Positions 19,956 to 36,222 of a stretch of DNA of 38,560 nucleotides are shown here, one piece after another. A program made the translations under genes and the position numbers. How positions within the stretch are numbered: the stretch's first letter is position 1; every line of letters begins with the position of its first letter. Source of the DNA: an uncultured Ruminococcus sp. (GTDB lineage Bacteria; Bacillota; Clostridia; UBA1212); assembly GCA_902782645.1 (NCBI GenBank), contig CACZNV010000009.1, positions 1 through 38,560 on the forward strand, in the 5' to 3' direction. Below the pieces are notes generated by a model that was not told the origin of the DNA, searched no databases, and saw nothing but the letters and a program-made list of their open reading frames with translations.

Positions 19956-19973
19956 GGCTACGGGGTGATAAAA

Positions 19974-20444
19974 ATGTCAATAAGGCAGTTGCGCGAAACA
20001 AAGGGATTGACACAGAGCCATTGTTCTGAATATCTGCAGATTCCCCTTCGCACGTATAAGAGGTATGAATCCGACGAGAGCAGGATTAACCGCATTAAGT
20101 ATCAATACATTATCGAGCGATTAAACGCTTTCGGGTTTATCGATGAAGAGCACGGAAAATTGACAATTGACCAAATCAAAGAGATTTGCGGTTCAGTTTT
20201 TCCCTCATATTCAGTAGAATACTGTTATCTGTTTGGCTCTTACGCCAAGGGAACAGAAACAGAGACCAGTGACGTTGACCTGCTTGTTTCTCTGCCGGTT
20301 AACGGACTGAAATTTTTAGAACTGATAGAGATTCTTCGTGAAAAACTGAAGAAAAAAGTGGATTTACTTGATGCTGCACAGCTTAACAACAATCCTACAC
20401 TTGTGCAGGAGATACTGAAGTACGGAATTAAAATATATGATTAA
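19974..20444 (+). CDS. XRE helix-turn-helix fused to a MNT-type nucleotidyltransferase domain
   Basis: A 156-residue protein. Residues 1-60 form an XRE helix-turn-helix (LRETKGLTQSHCSEYLQIPL, RTYKRYESDES). Residues about 80-156 form a minimal nucleotidyltransferase with GSYAKG at 88-93 and SDVDL at 99-103, the metal-binding GS...DxD pattern. ATG 19974 follows GGGGTGAT and lies just after a consensus promoter; the frame is open further upstream but has no signal. MNT domains usually serve as antitoxins that AMPylate HEPN toxins. Here no HEPN gene is adjacent and the MNT is joined to a DNA-binding domain, so it may be a stand-alone regulator or an orphan antitoxin. Confidence 0.85.
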   Translation: MSIRQLRETKGLTQSHCSEYLQIPLRTYKRYESDESRINRIKYQYIIERLNAFGFIDEEHGKLTIDQIKEICGSVFPSYSVEYCYLFGSYAKGTETETSDVDLLVSLPVNGLKFLELIEILREKLKKKVDLLDAAQLNNNPTLVQEILKYGIKIYD

Positions 20445-20515
20445 CACTCTGCTGCCGGTTGACTCCCGCAGGCGCCGGAGGGAAAATTGGCGGCAGGAAA
20501 AAGGAGAATGAAGCT

Positions 20516-20920
20516 ATGCCCAGGAAAAAAGATATACCGGAAATTGAGTGCCACAGGCCCACGGCTGTGCTTGCCGTTGAGGCTCCGGAGAGGAAGCTTT
20601 ATGCGTCCATCGCCAAGAACGATGCCGCAGAGGCCTTCGAGAAGCTGTGTGCGCCACTTGCCGTGGAGCTGAAGGACGACGGGTGCTTTTCGAAGAAAGG
20701 GACCCTTCCGAAAAGCATTCCTTTTACCGCCAATGACATCGAAACCGAGCCCGGCGACGTGATCCTGACGGATGAGAATACCGTTGCCGTCTGCTACGGG
20801 AAAAAGGCGGTCAAGGCCGTAAGAATAGGCGAAAAGACCTACAAATCCAAGGAGCAGATCCTTGAGATATTCGGCGAAGGCGACGTGAACGTAAGGTTTT
20901 ACCTCGAATGGAGCGAGTGA
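20516..20920 (+). CDS. Cyclophilin-like fold protein
   Basis: A 134-residue protein resembling the bacterial cyclophilin-like beta-barrel family (PF18050-type): a central helix region (NDAAEAFEKLCAPLAVEL), then SIPFTANDIETEPGDVILTD and NTVAVCYGKK, which match the 'P-G-D-I-x-L' and 'N-x-L-x-L-x-Y' landmarks of that family. No signal peptide is present, so it should be cytoplasmic. AGGAGA precedes ATG 20516. It follows the HTH-MNT gene after about 70 bases and ends in a bidirectional terminator. Function is unknown; members lack a proven peptidyl-prolyl isomerase role. Confidence 0.7.
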   Translation: MPRKKDIPEIECHRPTAVLAVEAPERKLYASIAKNDAAEAFEKLCAPLAVELKDDGCFSKKGTLPKSIPFTANDIETEPGDVILTDENTVAVCYGKKAVKAVRIGEKTYKSKEQILEIFGEGDVNVRFYLEWSE

Positions 20921-20921
20921 G

Positions 20922-20997
20922 CTCACATAGAAAAGCATCAGCCGAGACAAAAGGATACCACCCGCCCCAGGGCGGGGAGGGTATCCTTTTGTGACAA
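20922..20997. repeat. Direct repeat copy A, 3' of the second DUF4143 ATPase
   Basis: 76 bases beginning CTCACATAGAAAAGCATCAG. It is nearly identical to copy B (22426-22499) in the same orientation about 1.5 kb away, with the ATPase gene between them. Confidence 0.85.
20947..20992. terminator. Bidirectional terminator (13-base stem) between convergent genes
   Basis: ACAAAAGGATACC pairs perfectly with GGTATCCTTTTGT around a GC-rich inner stem. Runs of A and T on both sides let it work for the cyclophilin-like gene (+) and the ATPase gene (-). Confidence 0.85.
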
Positions 20998-21018
20998 ATT
21001 GTTTATGCGGCAAGACAA

Positions 21019-22308
21019 CTAAATGAAATCGTCGCCAAGTAAAAAGTCGTAGATGTTAACTGTTAGAATACCGTTTTCGTCATACCAGGGAGATACAAGA
21101 TCCTTGGTAACAATGATCTTCTTAAAAGAGTCATCAATCTTTTTGAAAGAATGTGTTTCCTGTATGCGCTTTTCTTCGTTGGGAAGAGAATAAGCTGACT
21201 GGATATATACTCGACTCGATCCCAGGTTACAAACGAAATCCACTTCAAGACTTGCCCGCTTTACGCTTCCGTCTTTTGTTTTTTCGACAACGGGCACAAC
21301 ACCCACATCGACATTGTAGCCTCGCATTCGGAGCTCATTATAAATTACGTTTTCCATACTGTGATTCGGTTCGAATTGGCGGAAATTTATCCTTGCATTA
21401 CGAAGCCCGAGATCGGAAAAGTAGAACTTAGAGGGCGTTTCGATGTAGCCTCTACCCTTTATGTCATAGCGCTTTGCTTCCTCTATGAGAAATGAATCTT
21501 CAAAGTAGCCAAGAAACCTGAGAATGGTGGCAGTGGTAATTGAAGATTTTTTGACGGTCTTGAAAGTGTTTTTAATCTTTTCAGGATTTGTCAATGATCC
21601 GACGGAAGACGAAAGAATATTCAACAAATCCTCCAGTTCGCCTACTTTACGTACTTTGTTGCGGCTTACGATGTCCTTGATATATATTTCTTTGAAGAGA
21701 GTGTTAAGAAGGGCGATTTTCTCCTGCGGGGTTCTCCGAAGGACGACAAGAGGTATACCTCCGTAGAGCATATACTGCGTCAGTCCTTCGTACCTGTCGC
21801 CTTCCCATACAGTCATAAACTCCGAATAACTGAGCGGGTAAAGATGAACATCGTCGCCTCTTCCCTCAAATTCAGTAATTATATCGCTAGAGAGAAACTT
21901 GGCGTTGCTGCCGGTGACATATATGTCCATGTTGCTTCTGCGCAGATAACTGTTCAGCACAGATTCAAAAGCGTTTAATTCCTGAATCTCGTCAAGCAAA
22001 AGGAAGTACATGCCGTCGTCTACGACCTTCTCCCTGATGTATGCCATAAATTTTGAAGGGTCGACTTTTTTGTTCTCTGATCTCAATCGTATCAGGTCCT
22101 CGCCAATAAGCGAAAGATCCTCGGCAGAATCAAACGCAAAGCGGATAATGTGGTCTTCATTGACGCCAATGCTAACGAGGTAATTGTAAAAAATAGTGTT
22201 AAGAAGATACGACTTGCCGCATCTCCTGATGCCCGTTATCACTTTGATCAATCCGTTCTGCTTACGGGATATTAGCTGGTTAAGGTAATGGTCGCGATTG
22301 ATTTCCAT
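21019..22308 (-). CDS. AAA+ ATPase with DUF4143 C-terminal domain (second copy)
   Basis: A 429-residue AAA_14/DUF4143 ATPase. Walker A GIRRCGKS is at 26-33 and Walker B YFLLLDEIQ near 109-117; GSNAKFLSS follows as sensor-like region. The C-terminal domain has LEVDFVCNLG but IQSAYSL where the first copy has VPVEVKAG, so the nuclease-like site is probably inactive. Start ATG 22308 follows GGAGGG with six bases between; the upstream frame to 22338 runs into a repeat. The gene is bracketed by 75-base direct repeats and its promoter lies between two 41-base repeats. It is only distantly similar to the first copy, so the two are not a recent duplication. Confidence 0.88.
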   Translation of the reverse strand: MEINRDHYLNQLISRKQNGLIKVITGIRRCGKSYLLNTIFYNYLVSIGVNEDHIIRFAFDSAEDLSLIGEDLIRLRSENKKVDPSKFMAYIREKVVDDGMYFLLLDEIQELNAFESVLNSYLRRSNMDIYVTGSNAKFLSSDIITEFEGRGDDVHLYPLSYSEFMTVWEGDRYEGLTQYMLYGGIPLVVLRRTPQEKIALLNTLFKEIYIKDIVSRNKVRKVGELEDLLNILSSSVGSLTNPEKIKNTFKTVKKSSITTATILRFLGYFEDSFLIEEAKRYDIKGRGYIETPSKFYFSDLGLRNARINFRQFEPNHSMENVIYNELRMRGYNVDVGVVPVVEKTKDGSVKRASLEVDFVCNLGSSRVYIQSAYSLPNEEKRIQETHSFKKIDDSFKKIIVTKDLVSPWYDENGILTVNIYDFLLGDDFI

Positions 22309-22319
22309 AAACAGCCCTC

Positions 22320-22360
22320 CTATTGAAGATTTTTGCAACTTTTAACAGTTTTCTCACATA
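22320..22360. repeat. 41-base repeat, copy 1, downstream of the ATPase -10 box
   Basis: This starts CTATTGAAGATTTTTGCAAC and matches 22393-22433 at 40 of 41 positions. It forms most of the 5' leader of the ATPase mRNA. Confidence 0.85.
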
Positions 22361-22388
22361 TTATCGCATCGAAAGACACTGATGTCAA
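22360..22388 (-). promoter_or_regulatory. Promoter TTGACA-17-GATAAT of the second ATPase
   Basis: On the minus strand, TTGACA (22383-22388) and GATAAT (22360-22365) are 17 bases apart. The promoter is framed by two 41-base direct repeats. Confidence 0.8.
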
Positions 22389-22392
22389 GCTT

Positions 22393-22433
22393 CTATTGAA
22401 GATTTTTGCAACTTTTAACACTTTTCTCACATA
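22393..22433. repeat. 41-base repeat, copy 2, upstream of the ATPase -35 box
   Basis: This matches copy 1 with a single substitution at a 73-base period, and runs directly into direct repeat copy B. Confidence 0.85.
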
Positions 22434-22499
22434 GAAAAGCATCAGCCGAGACAAAAGGATACCCACCGACCCAGGGCGGGAGGTATCCTTTTGTGACAA
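22426..22499. repeat. Direct repeat copy B, 5' of the second ATPase
   Basis: 74 bases nearly identical to copy A (20922-20997), including the whole terminator hairpin. Confidence 0.85.
22451..22494. terminator. Terminator-like hairpin between two divergent genes
   Basis: The same ACAAAAGGATACC / GGTATCCTTTTGT stem as at 20947, but here it stands between divergent genes, where no transcript needs to end. That suggests it is a duplicated copy. Confidence 0.7.
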
Positions 22500-22526
22500 G
22501 ACAGGCCTTTCAAACGATGTTATAAT
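22498..22526 (+). promoter_or_regulatory. Promoter AAGACA-17-TATAAT of the XRE-sigma4 gene
   Basis: A perfect TATAAT (22521-22526) and a partial -35 box (22498-22503) are 17 bases apart, about 40 bases before ATG 22566. Confidence 0.5.
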
Positions 22527-22565
22527 GAATGCGAAGACTTAATTATCCGGATTGGAGTATCCCCA

Positions 22566-23123
22566 ATGACAGACCTTTCTGAGATGCCGGACAGTTCAAA
22601 AGGGACTGAATGTGCTGAAGCAATCGCAAAGCTTAGAAGCGGGAAAGCCATGTCCCAGCAGGACCTGGCGGACAGTTTGTTCGTCTCAAGGTCGCTGGTG
22701 GCAATGTGGGAGACCGGAGCCAGGACGCCTGACAGCTACAGTTTGGAGCGCATGGCGGAGATGTTCGGCGTGGAGCCGGGGGATATTCTTGGCGACGTCA
22801 GGTATGCGTTTGTTTCAAGCCTGGAGAGGGAATTGATTGAGAGTGAGCTTGACGATTTCACAAGCAGCGGGCCTTCGCCAAGCGGCGCAGTAAACGGCGG
22901 CGCAACAGAAAGCGGCACCGAAAGGGCGGAGCGCATAATTGAGGATTTTTTCAAACGTGTCGGCCCGCGGGACAGGGAAATCTTTATGAGCCGCTACTTC
23001 GCCATGAAGGCGCTGAAGACCGTGGCGGAGGAGACCGGGATGAGCTTGGCGGCTGTGAAGAAAAGACTTTTCAAGATTCGAAAAAAGCTGAAGGCCTTTA
23101 TACTGAGGGAGGAAAAGAAATGA
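22566..23123 (+). CDS. Hybrid regulator: XRE helix-turn-helix joined to sigma-70 region 4
   Basis: A 185-residue protein. Residues about 15-72 are an XRE domain (SQQDLADSLFVSRSLVAMWE, TGARTP). A Ser/Gly-rich linker follows, then residues about 120-180 resemble sigma-70 region 4 (ERIIEDFFKRVGPRDREIFM, ETGMSLAAVKKRLFKIRKKL). Region 2, needed to bind core polymerase and melt the -10 box, is absent; the XRE domain stands in its place. GGAG precedes ATG 22566. The next gene overlaps its stop by four bases (ATGA) and encodes a single-pass membrane protein placed like an anti-sigma factor. The pair looks like a membrane-signalling unit built from non-standard parts. Confidence 0.85.
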   Translation: MTDLSEMPDSSKGTECAEAIAKLRSGKAMSQQDLADSLFVSRSLVAMWETGARTPDSYSLERMAEMFGVEPGDILGDVRYAFVSSLERELIESELDDFTSSGPSPSGAVNGGATESGTERAERIIEDFFKRVGPRDREIFMSRYFAMKALKTVAEETGMSLAAVKKRLFKIRKKLKAFILREEKK

Positions 23124-24016
23124 ACAGGGAAGATTTCAGAAAGGCACTCGCCAATGTGGGCAACCGCGAAGCAACGGACCAGGAGATAGAGCAGAAAAGG
23201 AAAAGGCCCCGTTTCAGGCCGGCGCTGGCAGCAGCGGTGGTGCTGGCGGCAGCGGTATTGGCGGCGGGAATCATTGGCGTGTACGCATACAAGTCCTACG
23301 TGGAGCAAAACCAGCAGGAAAAGGAGGTCGAGCCTGCCTCCTCGAAACCCGCCAAGGCTCTTGCCCCTCTCACCGCGACCACCGTCTCAGAGCTCTTTTC
23401 CCTTGATTCAGTCGTCATCCACCGGAAAGACCTGCCTACGGACCTGCAGCGGGAAATGAAAACCGGCCAAAAGTTTTCCTACAACGGCCTCAAATATTAT
23501 GTCCAGACATCCGGCTATAACTCCGGCGTCATAGGCATCAGGCAAATCTCCCATGAAGACGCCGTCAAGGTGATGAATTTTGCGGAGTTTACCCGGCCAT
23601 CCGACCAAAGGAGCTACACCGAGGAAGAGGCGTACTACGTCTATCTCCTGCTGAGCCATTCCTTAGGCGGCGGTGAAATCGGTTTCTATGTTCCCGCAGA
23701 AATGCGCAACGGCCAAGTGATCGCAGTGTTTCAGGAAGAGGAAAACGTGCTGTTTGTGATTGACTGCATCTTTCAAAAGGACAGGGTTGTTTGCATCAAA
23801 AAGGTGAGCCTGGATACCGTCAACAGCATGGGCCTGGTCCTTCCCCAAAAGGGCGAGAGGCTTGACTGCGCCTTTGACGAAACGAACACGCACTTCCTGG
23901 GGGATCTCTCGTACAGGGAAATAATCAACAAGATCTATGAGCTTTGCGGCATAACCGGCAACGATCTGTATCCCTTCCTGCCCTGGGCAACACCTGAGGC
24001 TGAGAATGAAGCCTGA
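23120..24016 (+). CDS. Single-pass membrane protein, anti-sigma-like partner
   Basis: A 298-residue protein with a cytoplasmic N-terminus of about 33 residues (DFRKALANVGNREATDQEIE), one transmembrane helix rich in Ala/Val (about 34-58), and an extracytoplasmic domain of about 240 residues without a recognised family. Its start overlaps the stop of the XRE-sigma4 gene as ATGA, so the two are translationally coupled. This is the standard layout of a sigma/anti-sigma pair, and the short cytoplasmic part would be the binding segment. No zinc-binding HxxxCxxC motif is seen. What the outer domain senses is unknown. Confidence 0.75.
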   Translation: MNREDFRKALANVGNREATDQEIEQKRKRPRFRPALAAAVVLAAAVLAAGIIGVYAYKSYVEQNQQEKEVEPASSKPAKALAPLTATTVSELFSLDSVVIHRKDLPTDLQREMKTGQKFSYNGLKYYVQTSGYNSGVIGIRQISHEDAVKVMNFAEFTRPSDQRSYTEEEAYYVYLLLSHSLGGGEIGFYVPAEMRNGQVIAVFQEEENVLFVIDCIFQKDRVVCIKKVSLDTVNSMGLVLPQKGERLDCAFDETNTHFLGDLSYREIINKIYELCGITGNDLYPFLPWATPEAENEA

Positions 24017-24091
24017 CACCGCCAAGGCCCCTCCCGCGCCCCGCATTTAACCTTTGCAACCTATGCTGCCGCTGCCGCCAAAGCTTGCGGT

Positions 24092-24487
24092 TTACTGCCC
24101 GTTTGTGAACTTTGTGCCGCAGCTCCAGCAAACCTTGCGGGTGCTCTTTTGTTTCGTCCCACAAACGGGGCACGTTATTAAGGCTTCTTCCTTCTTTTCC
24201 GGTTTTTCTTCAACCGGAGCTTCGCCGCTTATTGCATTAATGTCATGCTTAATAGTCTCGTTCAGTCCTATGTTCTCCCTGACGGATCTTTTTGTGGCAA
24301 CTATCTGCTTCATCAAAACGTTCTGGTTTCTAACGATGTGACCTATACCTATGTATATGACCGCAAAAAGAAATGTTCCTCCCCAAATATACGTGGCAAC
24401 TAAGAAGCTGTTAAGCTGCGATCCCACCGCTATCCCAGTTATGAAACCGCTAACGGATATAATGATTCCAAAGATGATGTAGAACAT
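24092..24487 (-). CDS. Two-helix membrane protein with C-terminal zinc ribbon
   Basis: A 131-residue protein with two hydrophobic segments (about 2-22 and 32-52), a charged helical region (KQIVATKRSVRENIG) and a C-terminal zinc ribbon with two Cys pairs (CPVCGTKQK and CWSCGTKF). AGGAGG lies seven bases before ATG 24487. Zinc ribbons of this form are common on small Clostridial membrane proteins of unknown role. The gene is convergent with the anti-sigma-like gene, with about 75 bases between them and no clear terminator. Confidence 0.75.
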   Translation of the reverse strand: MFYIIFGIIISVSGFITGIAVGSQLNSFLVATYIWGGTFLFAVIYIGIGHIVRNQNVLMKQIVATKRSVRENIGLNETIKHDINAISGEAPVEEKPEKKEEALITCPVCGTKQKSTRKVCWSCGTKFTNGQ

Positions 24488-24517
24488 ACTATTTCCTCCT
24501 GTGGGTAGTTTTGAAGT

Positions 24518-24546
24518 ATGGTAGCATAGATTGGGTGGGTTGGCAA
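24518..24546 (-). promoter_or_regulatory. Possible promoter of the zinc-ribbon protein (TTGCCA-17-TACCAT)
   Basis: On the minus strand, TTGCCA (24541-24546) and TACCAT (24518-24523) are 17 bases apart. The boxes are imperfect. Confidence 0.4.
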
Positions 24547-24733
24547 TGTTGTTTCATTGTAATACAGTTAAAGGAGATGAGCAGGCGGATTTGAGATTGA
24601 AAAGGAGCGCGACATTCATGGCCAGTTAACTGATAAATCACGAGTATGAACACAAAATACTACGAATAACTGTTCCTTATTTAGCAAACTTTGTACTATT
24701 CCGGTTTTGGTATTGAAAAACCAAAGAAAATGC

Positions 24734-24762
24734 TTGACAAATGTTCTTGAGAACGGTATAAT
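24734..24762 (+). promoter_or_regulatory. Promoter TTGACA-17-TATAAT with palindrome GTTCTTGAGAAC in its spacer
   Basis: Consensus -35 (24734-24739) and -10 (24757-24762) boxes are 17 bases apart. A perfect 12-base palindrome (24743-24754) fills the spacer, so a repressor bound there would shut the FtsH-like operon. It is not the B. subtilis-type LexA box, whose half-sites face the other way. Confidence 0.8.
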
Positions 24763-24827
24763 GTTGGCGGTTATCAAAAACCAAGTAAATGCAAAACTCA
24801 AATATTTACTGAAAAGGAGATAATTCT

Positions 24828-26192
24828 ATGAACGCATTTGACAAAGTAATTGGGTACAACGACATTAAAGCGGAACTCTTGCAAATCTGCGACATGTTAA
24901 AGAACAGAGAAAAATATGAACAGTTTGGCGCCAAGTTTCCCCACGGAATCATCCTTCACGGAAAACCCGGTGTCGGAAAAACTCTGATGGCTAACGCTTT
25001 TATAAAGGAGAGCGGTCTTCCCTGCTACACCGTGCGCAGAAAAGACGCAAGCCCGTATTTTACGAAAGAAATCGAGAAAGCTTTTTGCGACGCAAGGGAA
25101 AACGCTCCTGCAATTGTGCTTCTTGACGATATGGACAAGTTCTCAAACGAGGACGACAGACATACAGATGCGGAAGAATACGTGGCTATTCAAGCATGTA
25201 TTGATGAAAGTGCAGGTCAAGATGTATTTGTACTCGCCACTGTAAACAACATACACAAACTGCCGGACTCTCTTATTCGTGCAGGAAGGTTTGACCGAGA
25301 ACTCAGATTTTATTCGCCAAAGCGTTCCGATGCCAGAAAAATCGTTGAGTATTATCTTTCCGACAAACAATTGTCCGAAGAAGTTAATTTAGACGACTTT
25401 GTGAAAATGATGACCTACAACTCTTGTTCTGAACTGGAGACAATTATCAACGACGCGGCTATAAGAGCCGCATACGCCGGAAAAGACGTCATAGAGATGA
25501 ATGACCTCGCAGCGTCTGTTCTTACGATTCAGTACAACATTAATGCTCGATTGAACAAACCGGGTGCGCGGAGAAGAAGACGTCGTTTCGAAGATTTTTG
25601 CGATGAAGAGGATGATGCTGTCGTTGAAAACGAACCCGTAAGCGCTCTTGAAAAAAGAAAAGTCGCCCTTCACGAGGCTGGACATTTGGTGGCCAGTGAA
25701 ATCCTGAAAAGAGGAAGTGTCGGTCTTGCGACGATTTGCCCAAACGCTTCGAGCAAAGGTTTTATTTACAAATGTGTTGATACCAATTCCAGGAGCGCTG
25801 AAATCCTGATATCTCTTGCCGGCAAAGCAGCAGTGGAACTCTATTATTTCGATGCTTGTGCCAGCGGGTGCGAAAGTGACATCAGCAGTGCTGTAAAGCT
25901 CATTAGAAGCGGAATAACCTACAGTGGTACTCACGGATTCAGTGTTGTTCAAACATCTCTTGGCGATGATTACGACCACTACTACTCAGATAACTATAAA
26001 AACTCCATTGAGATTCTCACTAAGACAGAACTGGAGAAATATATGCGCAAAGCGCGTGAAATTATGATGAAAAACAGGGCTTTCCTCGAAAAGGTTACCG
26101 ATGCACTGCTTGAAAAAGAGGTGCTCCTGGCATCCGACATCAAATCAATAAGAGAAAGTGTAACTGGAACTCCAACGGAGGCCGCTGCATAA
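24828..26192 (+). CDS. Soluble FtsH-like AAA+ ATPase with M41-type zinc protease domain
   Basis: A 454-residue protein with the FtsH order of domains but no membrane segments. Walker A GKPGVGKT is at 45-52, Walker B IVLLDDMD near 96-102 and the second region of homology LIRAGRFDRE near 149-158. A basic/acidic linker (about 243-270, a run of six Arg then many Asp/Glu) separates this from an M41-like protease region with HEAGH near 282-286; CESDISS near 350 likely supplies the Asp ligand. Bacterial FtsH is normally about 600-650 residues and membrane-bound, so this is a shortened cytosolic relative, not the housekeeping protease. It begins an operon-like run of same-strand genes with its own repressible promoter. 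Confidence 0.85.
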   Translation: MNAFDKVIGYNDIKAELLQICDMLKNREKYEQFGAKFPHGIILHGKPGVGKTLMANAFIKESGLPCYTVRRKDASPYFTKEIEKAFCDARENAPAIVLLDDMDKFSNEDDRHTDAEEYVAIQACIDESAGQDVFVLATVNNIHKLPDSLIRAGRFDRELRFYSPKRSDARKIVEYYLSDKQLSEEVNLDDFVKMMTYNSCSELETIINDAAIRAAYAGKDVIEMNDLAASVLTIQYNINARLNKPGARRRRRRFEDFCDEEDDAVVENEPVSALEKRKVALHEAGHLVASEILKRGSVGLATICPNASSKGFIYKCVDTNSRSAEILISLAGKAAVELYYFDACASGCESDISSAVKLIRSGITYSGTHGFSVVQTSLGDDYDHYYSDNYKNSIEILTKTELEKYMRKAREIMMKNRAFLEKVTDALLEKEVLLASDIKSIRESVTGTPTEAAA

Positions 26193-26198
26193 GCGGCC
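26180..26198 (+). other. Hairpin spanning the FtsH-like stop codon
   Basis: GGCCGCT and AGCGGCC pair around a five-base loop, and the stop codon lies in the hairpin. No T-run follows, so it is not a normal terminator. Confidence 0.6.
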
Positions 26199-26281
26199 CC
26201 GTGAGAAAAAAAGCTGCGCAAAAGAGACCTAATAGATCAGCGATTTTAAGAACTGATCCGCATAACAATAAGGAGCACAAA

Positions 26282-26923
26282 ATGAATTATCACGATTTTT
26301 ATGAAGCGGTTAAGAATGTGGAGATTCCAAAAACACTTGTCCTGAATACTGCTTATTTCTGGTTCCATCGCGAACATCTTCCGCTTAAACTAGTTTCCTT
26401 AGGAGCTGCAAGCAATCCCGTTGTTAAGGTTCCTTCCACAGGATTGAATTCATACGGTAATATTGTACCGATACGTTATATCAGCAAAAAGGTTTTTGCC
26501 GGAAACAGATTAATAACGGACATTATTCTTCCGCCAAGTATTTTGGAGTGTCCCGAAGAGGCGTTTGCAGGTTGCACAAATCTTAAAAACATTACCATAC
26601 CTAAGACAATTAAAAGGATTCTTGCAAAAACTTTTGATGGATGTACCAACCTTGAGAACGTTTATTACGAAGGAAGCTTGGAAGAGTGGGAAAGTATTGA
26701 CATTGAATATGAAAGAGTTGAAATTGATTTTGGAGGTAATCTTCCCGGAACGCCTGTGCGGTCTGTTATCGACGAGAGAAGAGTGCCTATCCCGGGTAAT
26801 GAAGCTTTGAGAAAGGCAACCGTTCATTTCAATTGTGATTTAAAACTGTTTGAGGACGAAGATACAGATGATACAAACAATCAAAAAAAAACTGGCATGT
26901 ACGAAATCTGCCAAGAAGGGTGA
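26282..26923 (+). CDS. BspA-like leucine-rich repeat (LRR_5) protein
   Basis: A 213-residue protein with two to three LRR_5 (BspA-type) repeats between about residues 75 and 140: VFAGNRLITDIILPPSI, EEAFAGCTNLKNITIPKTI, KTFDGCTNLENVYYEG and SLEEWESI. No signal peptide is present, so unlike most BspA proteins it should stay in the cytoplasm. AGGAG precedes ATG 26282. It lies 89 bases after the FtsH-like gene in the same direction. LRR_5 modules bind proteins, so it might be a substrate adaptor or sensor for the protease; that is speculation from position. Confidence 0.75.
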   Translation: MNYHDFYEAVKNVEIPKTLVLNTAYFWFHREHLPLKLVSLGAASNPVVKVPSTGLNSYGNIVPIRYISKKVFAGNRLITDIILPPSILECPEEAFAGCTNLKNITIPKTIKRILAKTFDGCTNLENVYYEGSLEEWESIDIEYERVEIDFGGNLPGTPVRSVIDERRVPIPGNEALRKATVHFNCDLKLFEDEDTDDTNNQKKTGMYEICQEG

Positions 26924-26924
26924 T

Positions 26925-26987
26925 GCGATGGCCTTTAACTGGCGATGATTCATTCGATAAATCGCGCTTTGAACTAAAGCCCATCGC
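26925..26987 (+). other. Long imperfect hairpin between the BspA-like gene and the unknown gene
   Basis: Arms at 26925-26937 and 26975-26987 pair at 12 of 13 positions around a 37-base loop. It ends four bases before the duplicated leader at 26991. Confidence 0.5.
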
Positions 26988-26990
26988 GAT

Positions 26991-27044
26991 GACCCATGAG
27001 ATAAGGAGAATTCAACCCCAATGACAAAGGAAGAATGGACTGAA
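26991..27044 (+). repeat. Leader repeat E: translation leader and first eight codons
   Basis: 54 bases match 28336-28389 at 53 positions. It includes the AAGGAG ribosome binding site and the codons for MTKEEWTE. Confidence 0.9.
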
Positions 27045-28295
27045 ATGAACATATATGAGTTTCTGATAGAAGCAACAGAACGTCACTGCACTGCCGGAGC
27101 ATATAACGCTTACGGATACATGGCCAATTCTATTGATGTTGAAAATGCGAAAGTCATTGCATCAGGCGGCAAATTTACTACGTTTTCAGGATATGGCGAG
27201 AAAAGAGCCGTGAAAAGAAAGCGTACAGAGGGCGTAATTGTCTTTCCGTCAGAAGACAATGAGAAAACCTTGAATAATCTGCTCCTATATCTTTGTGGCG
27301 GTGATGAAATGGATTATGCATGGAAGCTCGGTCGTTTCGTGAAAAGGAGCGTTGTAAATCCAGAAGGATACGAATGTAGCGATAATTCTCTCTGCCTCGC
27401 AATTTCGACTTTCAACTGGGGAGAACTGATACTGGTTGTCAGAAACATCAGCTGCTGGCTTGGGTTTGATTATGTCTGGGTGAAGGTGACAAACGAAAAA
27501 CGTAAGTCTTGCGAAATGTGCAAAGTCGACTGCCGTAGTGAGGAATTCAAAGAAATGGGAAAACTCCAGCGCGGTGAAATATCAGAAGATGAATTTGATA
27601 GTTTTTTAAAAGAATTTAACAGCAGAAAACCTGAGAGAATCCGTAAAAACATAAGAAATGAGAAAAAATGGCTGCGTATTTTAACAGAGGATGTATTAAA
27701 AAGACTGTTGAAAGATAATTACCGCCTTGGCTGCATTGTGATAAAAGAAAAAAAACACGAAAAGGACTCGGAAAGGAAAAGCATTTCATACAATGACCTG
27801 GCAGAGAGAATATGGCGTAACGGCTATTCATATGTTAATGTATTCGGTTTGGCAAGAGACGAAATAAATCAAACATGCGATGATCATTATTACACATTTG
27901 AGGCAGATATTGACCAATTAGACAAGTGGATCATTGCCGTTCCGTACAGTACCGGAACATGTAAGCAAAAAGACTTTGAACAATTTCGAGCCGCAATTAC
28001 AAACATTTGTTCTGCTACCGATGAAGACGGATGCAGAGTGTTTTCAGAAGAAGATCCCTTAATATGTGAACCGAATGCAGAAGAAGATCTCTATCATACG
28101 GTACTTAAATTGATCGCAAGTTCAGAAGAAAACTCAGGGGAAATTTACTGCTGTATTGAAGGCCCGCCAAGATCCTATGCGGATGGCCATACTAAGTGGG
28201 CAAGAGGAAATCTGAACAGCATTTTACAGGAAACCAAGACTAAATGGCCAAAAGACTTTGCCTTGCATATAGCCCGTTGTGATGATAAAATGTAA
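27021..28295 (+). CDS. Unknown 424-residue cytoplasmic protein
   Basis: No family was recognised. The protein is mainly alpha/beta, without signal peptide or membrane segment. It has Cys-containing stretches (SCEMCKVDC near 156-164, ISCWLGFDYVWVKV) and a strongly charged helical middle (RKNIRNEKKWLRILTEDVLK). The C-terminal half has YSYVNVFGLARDEINQTCDD and WIIAVPYSTGTCKQ. Its first eight residues, MTKEEWTE, are the same as those of the methylase-like protein downstream, because leader and start were duplicated as DNA. The rest does not resemble that protein. It sits between the BspA-like and methylase-like genes, so it may be an exchangeable component of that operon. Confidence 0.75.
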   Translation: MTKEEWTEMNIYEFLIEATERHCTAGAYNAYGYMANSIDVENAKVIASGGKFTTFSGYGEKRAVKRKRTEGVIVFPSEDNEKTLNNLLLYLCGGDEMDYAWKLGRFVKRSVVNPEGYECSDNSLCLAISTFNWGELILVVRNISCWLGFDYVWVKVTNEKRKSCEMCKVDCRSEEFKEMGKLQRGEISEDEFDSFLKEFNSRKPERIRKNIRNEKKWLRILTEDVLKRLLKDNYRLGCIVIKEKKHEKDSERKSISYNDLAERIWRNGYSYVNVFGLARDEINQTCDDHYYTFEADIDQLDKWIIAVPYSTGTCKQKDFEQFRAAITNICSATDEDGCRVFSEEDPLICEPNAEEDLYHTVLKLIASSEENSGEIYCCIEGPPRSYADGHTKWARGNLNSILQETKTKWPKDFALHIARCDDKM

Positions 28296-28309
28296 ATGGT
28301 TATTATTAA

Positions 28310-28336
28310 CCGCGAAATGCGTAAGCATTTTCGCGG
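28310..28336 (+). other. Hairpin just before the methylase-like leader
   Basis: CCGCGAAATGC and GCATTTTCGCGG pair around GTAA with one bulged base. No T-run follows; it borders the second leader repeat. Confidence 0.65.
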
Positions 28337-28389
28337 ACCCATGAGATAAGGAGAATTCAACCCCGATGACAAAGGAAGAATGGACTGAA
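28336..28389 (+). repeat. Leader repeat F: translation leader and first eight codons
   Basis: Second copy of the 54-base repeat, exactly 1345 bases after copy E. The only mismatch is the base before ATG. Confidence 0.9.
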
Positions 28390-30171
28390 TTGAAACTAAG
28401 AAGTCATGTGTTCGTCAGAGAACTGGCTGCCGATATCATGGAACCCATAAAAGAACAGGCTGATGCGCCGATGCTGGCCGTTCCCATGGCCTATGTCCTT
28501 CTAAAGTACTTTAAAGACGGTGCAGACATATCGTCACCGGGAGCCTTTGTGGAGTCGCTCGGTATTGGCGATGAGAAAGAAAAAAGCCGCAAGATGGCGT
28601 TTTACAAAGGCAGGTTAGAGAGCGTTTGGAATGCAATCACAGAAGCCCCGGGAAGAGTCAGATTCCTTTCAGGGGATAAAAGCAATGCAATTCAAATATT
28701 AAAATCAATGGTCCTCTTCTACGATTTCACAAGGGTTGAAAAGAACTATTCTTCAATGCCTGAGTCGATAGCGGAGCTTGCCATAAGGATTCTCGACCTG
28801 AAAGAAGAGGACAGAGTTTGCGAGTACTGCACCGGAAGAGGCACGTTTACGGTATTGGCGTCTCAAAGAGAGCCGAAAGCAACCTACACCGGCATTGAGA
28901 TAGACAGTTTCCTTTGCGAGATAACTTCGATAAGAGTTGAGGCTGCAGGCGGTGAGATGAATCTGATTGAAGGCGATGTGTTCGAAAGGACGGCTGAGAC
29001 GAAATTCACAAAAGCTTTTATGAACTATCCATTCGGACTAAGACGAGTGAGTCTTGCGGGGGACTTAAACGACCAGAGCAGCCTGTTTGAAACTGTCAGT
29101 AAAACGCCAATCAAATTCGCAGACTGGCAGTTCATCGCAAACGTGCTTGACGGTCTCGAGGACGGGGGCAGGGCGGTCGTCGTCACTCACAACGGAAGTC
29201 TGAACAACTTGTACGATAAAGACGTTAGGTCGATTTTTATAAACCGAGGCTACATAGACGCGGTGATTGCGCTTCCCGAAAAGCTGTTTAACAACACGAG
29301 CATTCCGATGACGCTGCTGGTCCTGACCAAGAGAACTGATGCGGACAAAGCTCCCCGGACTGTTAAAATGGTCAAAGCGTCAGGCTTCTGCGAAAGCGCC
29401 AGATTCACCAACCTTATAACTGACGAAAACGTTGAGGAAATCATCCGCGCATACAAAGAAGACACGGTTTTTAGCAAAAACGTTCCGACCGAAGAAATCA
29501 TCGCCAATGACTTTGTCCTGTCTGCCGACAGATACTTTGCGGAGAAGGTTTCTCTGTCAAATTCCCGCGAATTTGGCGATTTCATTAAGGTCATCAAACG
29601 CGGCACGCCAATGAAGGCCGAGGACCTCAAGGCAATCGAGACTGACGAGGCCGGCTGTGAATATCTCGCCATCGGCAATATCGCTGACGGCTATATTGAC
29701 CACGACAGCCTGAAGCACATCAAACCCGATGGCGCACTTGCCGCAAAACTCGTAAATTACCAAATAAACGACGGCGACTTGATCATCTCTAAGGGAGGCA
29801 ACCCCTTCAAGATCGCAGTGGCAGATGTGCCGGAAGGTACGCAGATCATTGCAAGCGGAAACCTTTACGTGATTGAAATAGATAAAAGCAGAGGCAATCC
29901 GTACTTCTTCAAGGCATTCCTGGAGAGCGAAAAGGGACGAAAGATTCTTGACAACGCCTCTGTCGGGTCGGTCATTTCGATGATTAGCGCTGATGCAATC
30001 AGAAAGCTTCCGGTGCCAGCCTATACGCTTAGCGACCAGCAAACAATCGCCAATGAATTACGCGAGGTTACAACAACACTCCGCAAGACGGCAGCACACT
30101 ACAAGGCAACAATGGAAGAGCTGCGCGACAAAGCTGCGCATATCTGCGAGGAGTGGAATGCGGAGGAATAA
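28366..30171 (+). CDS. Fused N6-adenine-methylase-like and type I specificity-like protein
   Basis: A 601-residue protein. Residues about 110-400 resemble HsdM-type N6-adenine methylases: EYCTGRGTFTVLAS near 156 is the SAM-binding motif, followed by IEIDSFLCEITSIRVEAAGG and the downstream GGRAVVVTHNG. The catalytic motif reads NYPF at about 220-223 instead of the usual NPPY/F. Residues about 400-601 look like one target-recognition domain of a type I specificity subunit (FGDFIKVIKRGTP, LIISKGGNPFKIAV, then a coiled tail). No HsdR is present in the window. The altered catalytic motif makes methylation uncertain; it may act as a modified-DNA or DNA-binding component. Confidence 0.8.
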   Translation: MTKEEWTELKLRSHVFVRELAADIMEPIKEQADAPMLAVPMAYVLLKYFKDGADISSPGAFVESLGIGDEKEKSRKMAFYKGRLESVWNAITEAPGRVRFLSGDKSNAIQILKSMVLFYDFTRVEKNYSSMPESIAELAIRILDLKEEDRVCEYCTGRGTFTVLASQREPKATYTGIEIDSFLCEITSIRVEAAGGEMNLIEGDVFERTAETKFTKAFMNYPFGLRRVSLAGDLNDQSSLFETVSKTPIKFADWQFIANVLDGLEDGGRAVVVTHNGSLNNLYDKDVRSIFINRGYIDAVIALPEKLFNNTSIPMTLLVLTKRTDADKAPRTVKMVKASGFCESARFTNLITDENVEEIIRAYKEDTVFSKNVPTEEIIANDFVLSADRYFAEKVSLSNSREFGDFIKVIKRGTPMKAEDLKAIETDEAGCEYLAIGNIADGYIDHDSLKHIKPDGALAAKLVNYQINDGDLIISKGGNPFKIAVADVPEGTQIIASGNLYVIEIDKSRGNPYFFKAFLESEKGRKILDNASVGSVISMISADAIRKLPVPAYTLSDQQTIANELREVTTTLRKTAAHYKATMEELRDKAAHICEEWNAEE

Positions 30172-30374
30172 ATCCCACTCAGATGTCTGCCAGTGCAACG
30201 TTGTCAATAGAGTAGATGTGAATTCGTGCAAAAGCAATGACGCCATATTGCCACACTGCAACAGAGCAAACCAATCTAAGATGCCATTTGATGATTTTCC
30301 TAAAGAAAAGATCCATAAGGGTAAAACCTGCAAAAGTCACAAGTGAGGTCTCGTGGTCAAAATGTGAGGAAAGC

Positions 30375-30908
30375 ATGAACATTGACGACATAGATTTAAA
30401 CAAAACATGCTGCTTTACAGGCCACAGACCCGGTAAGCTGGTTGCAGACGAATCTGAAATCAGAGCCTGGCTCCGGCAGGAAATCAACCGTGCGGTGAAT
30501 TCGAACTTCAATACATTTATTTGCGGAATGGCGGATGGTGTTGACGTTTGGGCGGCGTTGGAGGTCTTGGCGTTGAGAAAAAACAATCCCGAAATCAGAC
30601 TTGTTTCAGCAGTGCCTTTCAGGGGCATGGATAAGAGCAGTCAATGCGGAGATATAAGTCTTTTTAACAAAATCATCAGTGAATCAGATTACGTTCATTA
30701 CATTTGTGACTACTACACCAGGTGGTGCTTTCTTGCAAGAGACAGATGGATGGTGGATCGGTCGGAGAGGGTAATTGCAGTGTTCAACGGGTCTAAGGGC
30801 GGAACAGCTTACACGCTGGAGTATGCCCGAAACAAGGGGCGAGAAATAGTTGTGGTAAATGACGCGGGTCTTGGTGGCAGGGTCGCCCCAAATGAGCATT
30901 TAGGATGA
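30375..30908 (+). CDS. SLOG-family protein (DUF1273/YpsA-like)
   Basis: A 177-residue protein with the DUF1273/YpsA signature of the SLOG superfamily: CCFTGHRPG at 12-20, ICGMADGVDVWAALEVL near 57, LVSAVPFRG near 85, and RWMVDRSERVIAVFNGSKGG near 131. SLOG domains bind nucleotide-derived ligands, and several are found in antiviral signalling systems. ATG 30375 follows GAGG. It lies 200 bases after the methylase-like gene in the same direction, within a run of likely defence genes. Whether it belongs to the FtsH-like/methylase operon is not shown, since the 200-base gap could hold a promoter. Confidence 0.85.
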   Translation: MNIDDIDLNKTCCFTGHRPGKLVADESEIRAWLRQEINRAVNSNFNTFICGMADGVDVWAALEVLALRKNNPEIRLVSAVPFRGMDKSSQCGDISLFNKIISESDYVHYICDYYTRWCFLARDRWMVDRSERVIAVFNGSKGGTAYTLEYARNKGREIVVVNDAGLGGRVAPNEHLG

Positions 30909-31377: not shown

Positions 31378-31587
31378 ATGGATATAATAAGAATATTTGG
31401 AACTAACTTACGAAAATACAGAACAAATAAAGGTCTATCTCAAGAACAGTTTGCTGAAATCTGTGGGCTTCATCGAACTTACATCAGTGATATCGAATGC
31501 TTTCAGCGAAATGTTTCGCTTGAAAACGTGCAAAGAATAGCTGACGCTTTAGGTATACAGTCATATAAGCTTCTTCAGGAGGAATAG
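31378..31587 (+). CDS. Restriction-modification controller (C) protein, XRE family
   Basis: A 69-residue protein made almost only of a helix-turn-helix (LRKYRTNKGLSQEQFAEICG, LHRTYISDIECFQRN), the size and form of R-M controller proteins. These delay endonuclease expression until the methyltransferase has protected the host. AGGAGG precedes ATG 31378. The endonuclease gene begins two bases after its stop, so both are on one transcript, as in many controlled type II systems. C-box-like half-sites lie upstream. Confidence 0.88.
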   Translation: MDIIRIFGTNLRKYRTNKGLSQEQFAEICGLHRTYISDIECFQRNVSLENVQRIADALGIQSYKLLQEE

Positions 31588-31589
31588 AT

Positions 31590-32369
31590 ATGCTATATGT
31601 TCACAAAGAAAACATGCGTTCAAAAATCGACAATAATTATAAAAACAAAGGTCGTATAATAGAAGATTTTTACCAAAACGAGTATCTTGCGATGCGTTCT
31701 AAAATTGATGTACTTACGTTTGACGAAAGTCATCTAGATTCTTTTACCGAAGCTGCTGATGAGTTTACAGACTATTACAAAAAAATAGAAAGGTTTTCAT
31801 CCGCTAACGGGATTTCGTCTCAATCAAAATTTGCCTCATCCTTTTTGGAAGAGATAAGTTGTTATCTCTTTAAGGATTTACCTGAAATCAGAAATGGTGT
31901 TTTTGGAGTATTCAACAAGGGTATTTATGCTGGGTTGAAGATAGACCGTAATCGCCGTATTGCGGTCATCAAAAAAGATGTAGATTTTTGCATTGGCAAA
32001 AAGGTGAGTATTACCATAGACGGGCAACCTTCCACTGAATTGATACTCCCCATTGTAGCAGTCGAAGTTAAGACATATCTTGATGCTACAATGTTTGGAG
32101 AAATAAAGTCATCCAGCAAATCAATTCGAAGTGCTTCTCCAAATTCTAAAGCATATGTTCTTATGGGGTACAAAAGTATTGCAGATGAGCACATAATCTC
32201 TGCTCGCCAGGACGCAACACTTACAGAAATGTTTAGCTTGTGTGCTGACGAACATATGTCATTTAATACTGTTGTCCTTCGTGAATATTGGGAGGAAATC
32301 AAAGATGCAGTTTCGTCCATCTCTGAATATGACAGTGTTCCAATTTCGGGCAAACTATTAAATCCATAG
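31590..32369 (+). CDS. Type II restriction endonuclease, PD-(D/E)XK, possibly Bpu10I-like
   Basis: A 259-residue protein between a controller gene and a convergent cytosine methyltransferase gene, the standard place for the endonuclease. The active-site pattern is visible as DVDFCIGKK near 129 followed by PIVAVEVKTYLDATMF near 155-170, with the E-x-K of a PD-(D/E)XK nuclease. The KTYLD-x-TM stretch recalls Bpu10I-family enzymes, but I cannot confirm that. AGGAGG at the end of the controller gene precedes ATG 31590. The target site is unknown; the partner methylates cytosine. Confidence 0.8.
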   Translation: MLYVHKENMRSKIDNNYKNKGRIIEDFYQNEYLAMRSKIDVLTFDESHLDSFTEAADEFTDYYKKIERFSSANGISSQSKFASSFLEEISCYLFKDLPEIRNGVFGVFNKGIYAGLKIDRNRRIAVIKKDVDFCIGKKVSITIDGQPSTELILPIVAVEVKTYLDATMFGEIKSSSKSIRSASPNSKAYVLMGYKSIADEHIISARQDATLTEMFSLCADEHMSFNTVVLREYWEEIKDAVSSISEYDSVPISGKLLNP

Positions 32370-32395
32370 AACATCAGTAGGTTCACGTTTGCGTA

Positions 32396-33520
32396 TTAGC
32401 GAAGAAAATCTGATATTGTACTCGCGATTGCTTTAGCGAGTAGAGGGGGGACTGCATTCCCTATCTGCTGATATTGCGATAGGTTTTTTTCCCATGACAT
32501 TGTTGTTCTTTTTCCGCAAAAAACATATGTGTCAGGGAACGATTGCAGTCTGGCACCTTCACGAGCGGTATAGTTACGGTTCTCAAATGGATGAATGAAA
32601 TTGCTTTGAAAACTTGCCGGTATAGTTGGAGAGGGCTTGTCAGGATATGGGCGCATATTGTTTTGAGAGTATACCTTCCCGCTGATTTTACTGGCATCGC
32701 CTCTCTGCCTTTGTTGATACTCTTGATTGACATCCGCCACTGATTGGCCAAAGCCAATATGTGAAAACCTTTCTATGAGTCTAGCAGTATGGTGCATGGC
32801 TACATGATTATAGACTTTCTTGCTATTTGTTCTTATCCAGCGTTGGTAATCGTTTTGCGCATCCATAGTGTAGTCCCACTCGTCCTGACCTTCACCGGCC
32901 TTTATCTTTGGAAGATCCATTATTGCTTGTTCAATAGTTATTTGATCGGCACCAAAAAGGAACCCTCTGGGTTTTATATTATCCGTGTTGTATTTAATAT
33001 CGTTGCGTAAGCCAATGAAGAATACGCGAATTCTACTTTGAGGGACACCAAATTCAGCAGCATTTAGCATAAACACTTCAACATTGTAGCCCGCTTGTGT
33101 GAATTCGTTAACAATGAGCTCTTTTACAAGATCCCCATTTTTTGTTTGCATTGAAAGGATTCCTGTAACATTCTCCATTACAAAAAATCTTGGCTTAAAG
33201 TGTCGTACAAAGCGAACAAACTCCATAAAGAGACTATTCCTCGGATCTTTTTTGTCTCGGTTCCCGCTTAAAGAAAAGCCTTGACAAGGCGGACCCCCAA
33301 TGATGCCATCAATTTTCATATTCTTTTCTGGGAGCAGACTGTCAAGATCCAATACCTTCGTGATATCGTTTGTGATGACTGCGGTATTAGGATGATTTCT
33401 TGTATAGGTTTGAGATGCCCATGCATCTTTTTCTACAGCAAGAGGAACGTTATAGCCTGCCATTTCAAAGCCAGTGCTTAAGCCACCGCAACCGGCAAAC
33501 AAATCAATTACATTGCGCAT
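32396..33520 (-). CDS. DNA cytosine-5 methyltransferase
   Basis: A 374-residue C5-cytosine methyltransferase with the ordered motifs: DLFAGCGG (I, 6-13), GGPPCQGFS (IV, 75-83, catalytic Cys), FVMENV (VI, about 113-118), QSRIRVFFIG (VIII) and QYQQIGNAVPP (X). It protects DNA from the adjacent endonuclease. It converges on that gene with 26 bases between stops. GGAGG lies 10 bases before ATG 33520. The likely promoter is about 260 bases upstream, beyond a small leader frame. The gene and its island lack the TTGGCG motif and look AT-rich, which points to transfer. Confidence 0.95.
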   Translation of the reverse strand: MRNVIDLFAGCGGLSTGFEMAGYNVPLAVEKDAWASQTYTRNHPNTAVITNDITKVLDLDSLLPEKNMKIDGIIGGPPCQGFSLSGNRDKKDPRNSLFMEFVRFVRHFKPRFFVMENVTGILSMQTKNGDLVKELIVNEFTQAGYNVEVFMLNAAEFGVPQSRIRVFFIGLRNDIKYNTDNIKPRGFLFGADQITIEQAIMDLPKIKAGEGQDEWDYTMDAQNDYQRWIRTNSKKVYNHVAMHHTARLIERFSHIGFGQSVADVNQEYQQRQRGDASKISGKVYSQNNMRPYPDKPSPTIPASFQSNFIHPFENRNYTAREGARLQSFPDTYVFCGKRTTMSWEKNLSQYQQIGNAVPPLLAKAIASTISDFLR

Positions 33521-34527: not shown

Positions 34528-34672
34528 GACTCAGTCAGTAGTTACGTTAGACTGCATAGGCAAGAATCAGTTCGATGCAATGATGCAGAAGGGCTACGAC
34601 GAAGCTCAAGCCGGGATCGGTCTTTCAGTTGATGAGGCGTTCAAGAAAATCCGTGAGATTATTGGAGGTTGA
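34490..34672 (+). pseudogene. Antitoxin-like (RelB/DinJ-type) fragment, 5' end missing
   Basis: The 60-residue frame contains FDAMMQKGYDEAQAGIGLSV and DEAFKKIREIIGG, resembling the C-terminal part of RelB/DinJ-like antitoxins. Its apparent ATG lies inside the preceding frame and lacks a ribosome binding site, so the true 5' end seems lost. The join between the two fragments is near 34500-34515. Its stop lies two bases before ATG 34675 of the HEPN gene, and GGAGG for that gene is within its last codons, so the two may have been one transcript. Confidence 0.45.
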
Positions 34673-34674
34673 AG

Positions 34675-35442
34675 ATGGACAGCAATCAGATTGTCAGCAA
34701 AATGAATTCGTATACATTTATTTCTGCAGAGATTCTGGAAAAATGGCTGGGTAAGGTGCTGCCGCAGGTTTCAGAAAACTGGTGGGACAAATGCGTAATG
34801 GAGAATTTGACCAACAATCAGAGAGAAACCGTAATTAATAGAGGAATAACGAATCTTTCTCAGCTCGATCTTGCAGCGTTGCTTAACGTGGCAGAAGGGT
34901 CTTCCTCGTCGTTGCGTAGCATTTATTATTTGTCCGAGAGTGAAAAAAACTGTCTAAAGAAAATGAAAGACGTGAGAAACGATTGGGCACATGTTAGCGT
35001 TGAACTTCCGAACAAGGACAAAATTCTTGCTGATTTGACGACTTTGCGAACCTTTTTCAGATTGTTTGACAGCGGCAACAAAAACCTTCATAGGGAAATT
35101 GACTCAATAATAGAAGTGTTAAACAATCCCTCAGCTGCTGCAAAGGCTCCTGTAAAGACCGTTAATAAACCGCATGCTGAGAACAAAGCCAAGGCCTCAA
35201 GAACTGTCAAATTTGAGAGTTTTGAAAAATATATTTCAGAGAAAACTGAAAGCCGGTTTACACTTACATTCGGTGAAATTGAAGCTATCATGGACAACAA
35301 GCTGTGCGATTCAGCTTATACTTACGTTGAATATTGGAGCCCTTCCGGTCATTCATTTCCAAGGATGGTACAATCTTACGGTTACAGAATGAAGCCGGAT
35401 TTGAAGAATCAAAAAGTCCTTTTTTATAGGGAAGAACTCTAA
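34675..35442 (+). CDS. HEPN (Swt1-like) protein with C-terminal DUF7662-like domain
   Basis: A 255-residue protein. Residues about 12-135 form an all-helical region with ISAEILEKWLGKVLP and the motif RNDWAH at 101-106, which fits the R-x4-H (RNxxxH) active site of HEPN ribonucleases, as in Swt1-type domains. A Lys/Ala-rich linker leads to FTLTFGEIEAIMDNKL, SAYTYVEYW and KPDLKNQKVLFYRE, resembling the DUF7662 domain found at the end of many defence or toxin proteins. GGAGG lies six bases before ATG 34675. It may be an RNase toxin; the upstream antitoxin fragment is not a known HEPN partner. Confidence 0.7.
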   Translation: MDSNQIVSKMNSYTFISAEILEKWLGKVLPQVSENWWDKCVMENLTNNQRETVINRGITNLSQLDLAALLNVAEGSSSSLRSIYYLSESEKNCLKKMKDVRNDWAHVSVELPNKDKILADLTTLRTFFRLFDSGNKNLHREIDSIIEVLNNPSAAAKAPVKTVNKPHAENKAKASRTVKFESFEKYISEKTESRFTLTFGEIEAIMDNKLCDSAYTYVEYWSPSGHSFPRMVQSYGYRMKPDLKNQKVLFYREEL

Positions 35443-35468
35443 AAGAATCAGACAAAGATTTACGGTTT

Positions 35469-35500
35469 GCTGTCGGTCACGGCCGACAGCTTTTATTTTA
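35469..35500 (+). terminator. Rho-independent terminator after the HEPN gene
   Basis: GCTGTCGG pairs with CCGACAGC around a six-base loop and is followed by TTTTATTTTA. Confidence 0.85.
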
Positions 35501-35515
35501 GCGCCCCTTCGCATA

Positions 35516-35544
35516 TTGATTAGATTTTCATACTCAAATAAACT
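35516..35544 (+). promoter_or_regulatory. Promoter TTGATT-17-TAAACT for the DUF6273 gene
   Basis: TTGATT (35516-35521) and TAAACT (35539-35544) are 17 bases apart, about 35 bases before ATG 35578. Confidence 0.45.
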
Positions 35545-35577
35545 GTGATTACAAGGAAAATGGTAAGGAGATGCTTT

Positions 35578-36222
35578 ATGGAAAACCGTTTAAAAACAGG
35601 CGTTATATCTTTCGGCAGGTACCCAACAACTGCGGAGGGGAACGTGCTGGGGATTGATTGGCGTGTTCTAAAAGTTGAGGGGGACAAGGCGCTTGTCGTC
35701 AGCGAGTTTGCCCTTGATTGCAAGCAGTTTGGTGAAAACGGGAATGATGTGACTTGGGAAAACTCTTTGCTTCGCAGGTGGCTTAATAATGAGTTCTTGG
35801 CGGCTGCCTTTTGCGAGGATGAGCGTGAGAGAATAATTGATGCTTACCTAAAAGTAGAAGAAAAACCGGTTTATGATGCATTCTTTGATGTTACCGTAGA
35901 TCCGGGTCGTGATACGGTGGACAAGGTGTTTATTCTCAGCGTCAAAGAGGCCAAGACGCTTTTTGAAAGTGATGAAGCAAGATTGTGCCGGCCTACGGCT
36001 TATGCTAAAATGAGAGGTGTTGAGACGTGCGAGGGGGATGAATATCTGCCTAACGAAAACCCGCATTGCGAGTGGTGGTTGAGGTCGTCCGGCGTGGTGC
36101 CGAATGGTCGCTGTTCTCCTGTGGCCACGGTTTCCGATGATGGCGGAGTATTGCCGAGCGGAGTGTACTGCGATTGGGAGCTTGGCGTGAGGCCGGCTTT
36201 GTGGATAAGGGTTGGAGAGTGA
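35578..36222 (+). CDS. DUF6273 domain protein
   Basis: A 214-residue protein made of one DUF6273 domain: VISFGRYPTT, IDWRVLKVEG, SEFALDCKQF, SLLRRWLNNEFLAAAF, DKVFILSVKEA, then CEWWLRSSGV and GVRPALWIRV. The WWLRSSG and VRPALWI elements are the family's signature. GGAG lies seven bases before ATG 35578; the frame upstream has no signal. DUF6273 resembles formylglycine-generating/diversity-like folds in layout, but its function is unknown. No signal peptide is seen, so it is probably cytoplasmic. Confidence 0.85.
   Translation: MENRLKTGVISFGRYPTTAEGNVLGIDWRVLKVEGDKALVVSEFALDCKQFGENGNDVTWENSLLRRWLNNEFLAAAFCEDERERIIDAYLKVEEKPVYDAFFDVTVDPGRDTVDKVFILSVKEAKTLFESDEARLCRPTAYAKMRGVETCEGDEYLPNENPHCEWWLRSSGVVPNGRCSPVATVSDDGGVLPSGVYCDWELGVRPALWIRVGE

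Follow-up and report, generated by a model that had tools for sequence, protein, structure and literature searches.

A total of five genes (P1 to P5) were found on one strand of the window, the whole stretch of 38,560 nucleotides analysed in this study, downstream of a perfect -35/-10 promoter at position 24734 (Table 1). Contig C9 of a 2.15 Mb genome (G000) makes up the window, which was compared with a near-identical relative (G004) and a 68% relative (G005), all three belonging to one genus. The promoter is identical in G004 and absent in G005, and the inverted repeat GTTCTTGAGAAC is located in its spacer; the five same-strand genes, the strong promoter and the spacer palindrome of the original prediction are all present in the sequence. 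The palindrome was rejected as a regulon signal or genome-wide operator since the genome shows no excess of it (8 sites, with 9 in the reversed control) and no such promoter accompanies the five other sites that could be read.

Table 1. Features of the five-gene cassette in the window.
Feature	Position	Strand	Evidence
Sigma-70 type promoter TTGACA-17-TATAAT	24734..24762	+	12/12 consensus matches
Inverted repeat GTTCT-TG-AGAAC, possible operator	24743..24754	.	within promoter spacer
P1, soluble zinc protease of AAA+ / M41 type, 454 aa	24828..26192	+	AAA 6e-20, Peptidase_M41 1e-17
P2, BspA-type LRR protein, 213 aa, no membrane segment, proposed substrate adaptor	26282..26923	+	LRR_5 8e-14
59-nt direct repeat, copy 1	26991..27049	+	ribosome site of P3 with its start and first codons
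P3, two-module protein, no confident family	27021..28295	+	modules in separate ORFs in G005
59-nt direct repeat, copy 2	28336..28394	+	ribosome site of P4 with its start and first codons
P4, fusion of an N6-adenine methylase with one type I-like specificity half	28366..30171	+	N6_Mtase 2e-32, Methylase_S 2e-4
P5, YpsA-family SLOG protein	30375..30908	+	YpsA SLOG 6e-16

The reading frames of P2 and P5 open at 26201 and 30237 respectively, and the starts given in Table 1 are the better ones, with AAGGAG upstream in P2 and GAGGA in P5. A gap of 203 nt precedes P5, which is only a putative member of the operon. This gene encodes an ordinary YpsA-type SLOG protein, scoring 59.4 bits against a YpsA profile cut-off of 27.7 bits and matching 2nx2.

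The two copies of the direct repeat are 97% identical and flank P3, so that recombination between them would excise P3 cleanly. A related leader occurs in G005 only before P4, which suggests that P3 probably acquired the leader of P4. Residues 1-195 and approximately 320-424 of P3 correspond to separate ORFs in G005. The N-terminal module was found on two further contigs carrying P1 (10 kb away in L070 and 16 kb away in G161); only one sampled genome outside the genus has it. A PDB search with P3 gave no match, and its predicted fold was set aside (model pLDDT 41).

In P4, M and S occur in one chain with one specificity half, and the closest relatives outside the genus are about 30% identical. 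The gene is under purifying selection (dN/dS 0.14-0.16; 0.16 for G000 versus G004). A catalytically dead P4 was considered from its motif IV (NYPF) and motif I (CEYCTGRGTF) and was not accepted, given the motifs of KsgA and Erm enzymes, which use NLPY or NIPY, the weak matches of the KsgA and Erm family profiles to P4, and the dN/dS values. The sole HsdR of G000 (contig C43) adjoins its own HsdM and HsdS, and none was found in G004 (77% complete) or G005. These searches uphold the claim of a methylase-like protein with its own recognition domain and no nuclease partner, and we propose that P4 is an orphan sequence-specific adenine methylase.

Several other gene sets were observed in the flanks and elsewhere in the genome. 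Upstream of the cassette (22566-24016), an HTH domain fused to sigma-70 region 4 overlaps a membrane protein with a weak anti-sigma match, and the two possibly form a one-cassette sigma/anti-sigma switch. A restriction-modification (R-M) unit consisting of an HTH controller-like gene, a Bpu10I-like endonuclease and a C5 methylase lies at 31378-33520, followed downstream by HEPN_Swt1, DUF6273, PDDEXK_4 and DUF3990 genes in series (34669-38337). Contig C43 carries a type I R-M set of HsdM, HsdS and HsdR (L194) with an ADP-ribosylglycohydrolase-like ORF nearby. It also encodes a 975-aa protein (L022:80-3007) that, as judged by eye, combines a pair of CbxX/CfxQ-type AAA domains with an M41-like peptidase (HELGH) at the C-terminus, an unusual fusion in the same genome as P1.

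The P1 protease and its distribution

P1 consists of an AAA domain followed by an M41 domain with a complete zinc site. Its motifs comprise Walker A (GKPGVGKT), arginine fingers, HEAGH and D351 as the third zinc ligand, and none of 44 members of the P1 clade departs from H282, E283, H286 and D351. Nothing lies N-terminal of the two domains, and neither the N-terminal membrane anchor of housekeeping FtsH nor any other membrane segment was found, the best 19-residue hydropathy being 1.18 versus at least 2.34 in 21 FtsH controls. The motifs and the hydropathy agree with the earlier description of a protease bearing AAA+ and HEAGH motifs and lacking membrane segments. The structure model (pLDDT 85) matches FtsH over its full length (3kds, E 3e-25).

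The Walker B motif of P1 is LLDDMD, whereas FtsH has DE. This Glu to Asp change (DD) was found in every clade member examined, and DE in all 21 FtsH; the pattern used for the clade scan itself contained LDD, although members recovered by a plain search also have DD. The aspartate could reduce the ATPase activity of P1. In a tree of 83 short proteins and 21 FtsH, the two groups fall on the two sides of one branch (support 100, one change), and members of the P1 clade are about 420-480 aa long without membrane segments. Clustering with housekeeping FtsH, proposed earlier as a test of the system, was accordingly not observed. P1 scores 181.8 against the FtsH equivalog TIGR01241, below the cut-off of 600, and G000 has its own separate FtsH on contig C167. 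Selection on P1 is reflected in a dN/dS of 0.13 (G000 versus G004). P1 would be FtsH-like in mechanism, minus the membrane anchor, and is not a housekeeping FtsH; we infer active proteolysis and hexamer formation.

A total of 222 stretches related to P1 were found in a scan of one genome per species covering about 85,000 species, and the best 80 of them come almost entirely from Bacillota, mostly Clostridia of the gut and rumen. Among 391 sampled genomes from the class, members beyond the genus were found in eight (G164, G318, G326, G161, G330, G391, G039 and G024, the last being a fragment only). Cultured carriers of the family are Butyrivibrio proteoclasticus, Schwartzia succinivorans and Mobilibacterium timonense. 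The Butyrivibrio copy is located on plasmid pCY186 amid replication-like genes; the distance to a WYL gene there is about 7 kb. Two matches were found on viral contigs. The one at L143 is probably not viral, as the adjoining gene resembles release factor 2. A phage-borne P1 was likewise rejected, since all 92 phage records have less than 60% identity, with about 25% among the matches listed, which is the level of ordinary FtsH.

Genes linked to P1

The neighbourhood of P1 was analysed in 82 loci outside the genus. P2 orthologues were found within 3 kb of P1 in six of them (L066, L072, L073, L114, L086 and L091), and in the P1 tree these loci are spread over two deep branches, compared with a roughly estimated chance expectation of 0.001 for P1-P2 neighbours. 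Most of the linked orthologues have the same N-terminus and tail as P2; the copy in L072 is split over two frames and that in L086 seems incomplete. At a similar threshold, P2 occurs anywhere in just one of 244 other genomes of the class, where P1 is absent within 10 kb. Generic LRR_5 proteins were observed near P1 in 16 of the 82 loci and were absent from a control of 586 kb drawn from six genomes. P1 and P2 are therefore a pair that recurs together in unrelated gut bacteria, and the conserved partner of P1 is an LRR protein, not a methylase. P2 is not obligatory, as 76 of the 82 loci and G005 are without it and G087 has P2 with P1 absent among the matches listed. It is the best-supported partner, and its linkage and fold class suggest that it is probably an adaptor.

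All five genes occur together only in G000 and G004, where they are collinear with 94-99% identity. This collinearity extends from 13938 to 30868, so that homology ends inside the end of P5, and the neighbouring R-M genes are absent from the examined pieces of G004 and G005. G005 retains P1 (66-68%), P4 (64-66%) and P3, the last as two ORFs with other genes between them, in flanks that differ from the window, and it lacks P2 and P5. Neither P4 nor P5 was found as a close partner of P1 in the 82 loci. SLOG proteins of 34-38% identity lie 7-9 kb from P1 in one lineage, and a single M-S relative near another P1 (L083, about 20% identity) was rejected as an independent co-occurrence because it is within chance by a rough estimate. 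The failure to co-occur in other genomes, named earlier as evidence against a system, thus applies to P4 and P5 but not to P2. A five-gene system is unlikely and its linkage to the R-M island is not conserved. We propose that the remaining genes (P3 to P5) are either passengers or extensions at the level of the genus.

Among the other neighbours, WYL regulators were found in 35 of the 82 loci (29 within 3 kb) versus one gene in the control. Weaker enrichment was observed for calcineurin-type phosphatases (14 loci), ADP-ribosylglycohydrolases (9), CbxX-type AAA proteins (8) and DUF2779 proteins, and macro and RtcB genes occur in four and three loci respectively; the control has no phosphatase, ADP-ribosylglycohydrolase, CbxX-type, macro or RtcB gene. 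Since this control comes from six genomes and P1 loci served both to choose the neighbour families and to train their profiles, which favours these loci over the control, only the WYL and P2 linkages are firm. MoxR-like and DUF2201-like proteins occur in some loci, as named by eye and not by profile matches, and many P1 loci share no neighbour. The setting of P1 resembles described conflict or stress islands.

An uncharacterised family with an xVxRFIxSKDIRxxL start, often duplicated, was also observed near P1 (L066:3398-4408, L063:12625-14319, L082, L087, L089, L107 and L109); in G005 it lies between the P3 halves.

Explanations for the cassette

The explanation that we favour, which we hold to have about an even chance of being right, is that P1 is a soluble FtsH-type protease with P2 as its substrate adaptor, in a unit induced in stress or conflict. 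P1 would act as a hexameric AAA+ zinc protease degrading cytosolic proteins, P2 would be its substrate adaptor or recognition partner, and the unit would be held silent or low until stress or conflict turns it on. The switch would be the adjacent WYL regulator at other loci and, in the window, probably a repressor bound to the palindrome that lies within the strong promoter. The adaptor role, the inducing signal, the repressor and any part in phage defence are what we infer, and a defence role is possible. Against this explanation, no WYL gene was recognised in the window cassette, P2 is missing from most P1 loci, the pCY186 copy lies among replication-like genes and the Walker B aspartate could lower ATPase activity. 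A broader version is a tentative suggestion: an undescribed, widespread conflict module of gut Clostridia in which exchangeable LRR adaptors would direct the protease and WYL sensors would govern it, for the selective degradation of foreign or modified proteins.

The WYL, phosphatase, ADP-ribosylglycohydrolase, CbxX-type, macro and RtcB counts would also fit a role of P1 within conflict islands, as one of their effectors or as a quality-control protease that removes damaged or ADP-ribosylated proteins; P2 and the CbxX-type AAA proteins would be examples of its chaperone-like partners. The same ingredients define the ARG-centred systems in the available part of their description (PMC9503650). 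This is an unlikely reading, as none of these genes is inside the window cassette, each of them save WYL is in a small minority of loci, and the profiles are biased against the control. A slightly more doubtful reading is that the region is no system at all, with unrelated genes joined by recombination, P1 standing alone and P4 being an orphan epigenetic methylase. The removable P3 cassette, the flanks that change in G005 and beyond P5, and the many P1 loci without a common neighbour all argue for it; the P1-P2 linkage far above chance, the retention of P3 and P4 with P1 in G005, and the recurrence of the P3 N-terminal module on P1 contigs argue against it. The least probable reading is the five-gene defence system of the original prediction, in which P4 would mark or sense DNA, P5 would sense a ligand and P1 would destroy proteins on unmodified or phage DNA. 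The single promoter and strand, the persistence of P1, P3 and P4 together in G005 at about 60-70% identity, the recognition domain of P4 without a nuclease and the accessory nature of the locus are in its favour. They are outweighed by the lack of P4 and P5 linkage outside the genus, the loss of P2 and P5 in G005, a lone M-S relative near another P1 that is within chance by a rough estimate, and R-M neighbours that are not conserved. Action by protein destruction stays plausible for P1, and DNA recognition aiming the protease is not borne out.

A five-part defence system is less likely than a widespread protease module that has so far not been described. A soluble M41 branch with its own Walker B signature, found in many gut and rumen Clostridia within accessory regions and next to WYL regulators that sense ligands, would add a new route to regulated proteolysis, and the LRR partner offers a direct, testable adaptor hypothesis.

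Comparison with known systems

No described system corresponding to the set was found, in agreement with the original prediction, and the literature yielded no soluble FtsH/M41 defence protease. P1 shares with FtsH, Yme1 and AFG3L2 the fusion of AAA+ to M41, the HExxH plus Asp zinc site, the arginine fingers and the fold. It differs from them in having no transmembrane or periplasmic part, in its length of about 420-480 aa, in the DD of Walker B, in its separate clade and in being accessory. To our knowledge, all known M41 AAA+ proteases are membrane anchored.

The domains of P4 are shared with HsdM/HsdS of type I R-M systems and with Mad2/Mad5 of MADS. P4 differs in that a single chain holds both M and S, with one specificity half and no HsdR beside it. 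NCBIfam MAD2 and MAD5 scores are far below cut-off, and no other MADS component was found in a PADLOC scan of ten proteins.

The IetAS anti-phage system consists of the AAA ATPase IetA and the subtilisin-like IetS. An AAA ATPase coupled to protein cleavage is common to both, and the PADLOC IetA profile matches the AAA domain of P1 (2e-20). In P1, however, the M41 peptidase is in the same chain and only the generic AAA part matches; with the NCBIfam IetA equivalog, listed as IteA, the score is 57 and the cut-off 510, and a scan of ten proteins from the cassette and its surroundings gave no IetS match.

The FtsH-type component of MoxR-vWA-FtsH ternary systems is described as having two AAA copies, the first inactive (PMC7159879). 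The likeness lies in the FtsH-type AAA and in the MoxR-like and DUF2201-like proteins named by eye in some P1 loci, whereas the AAA of P1 is single and joined to an M41 domain, and the taxa are different (PMC7159879). The available part of the description of ARG-centred systems places WYL or Nudix regulators, phosphatases and chaperones around an ADP-ribosylglycohydrolase, and names no protease of the P1 kind there (PMC9503650). The ADP-ribosylglycohydrolase core, WYL and phosphatase are absent from the window cassette; across the P1 loci, the WYL regulator, the ADP-ribosylglycohydrolase and the calcineurin-type phosphatase are shared with these systems as far as that part describes them (PMC9503650).
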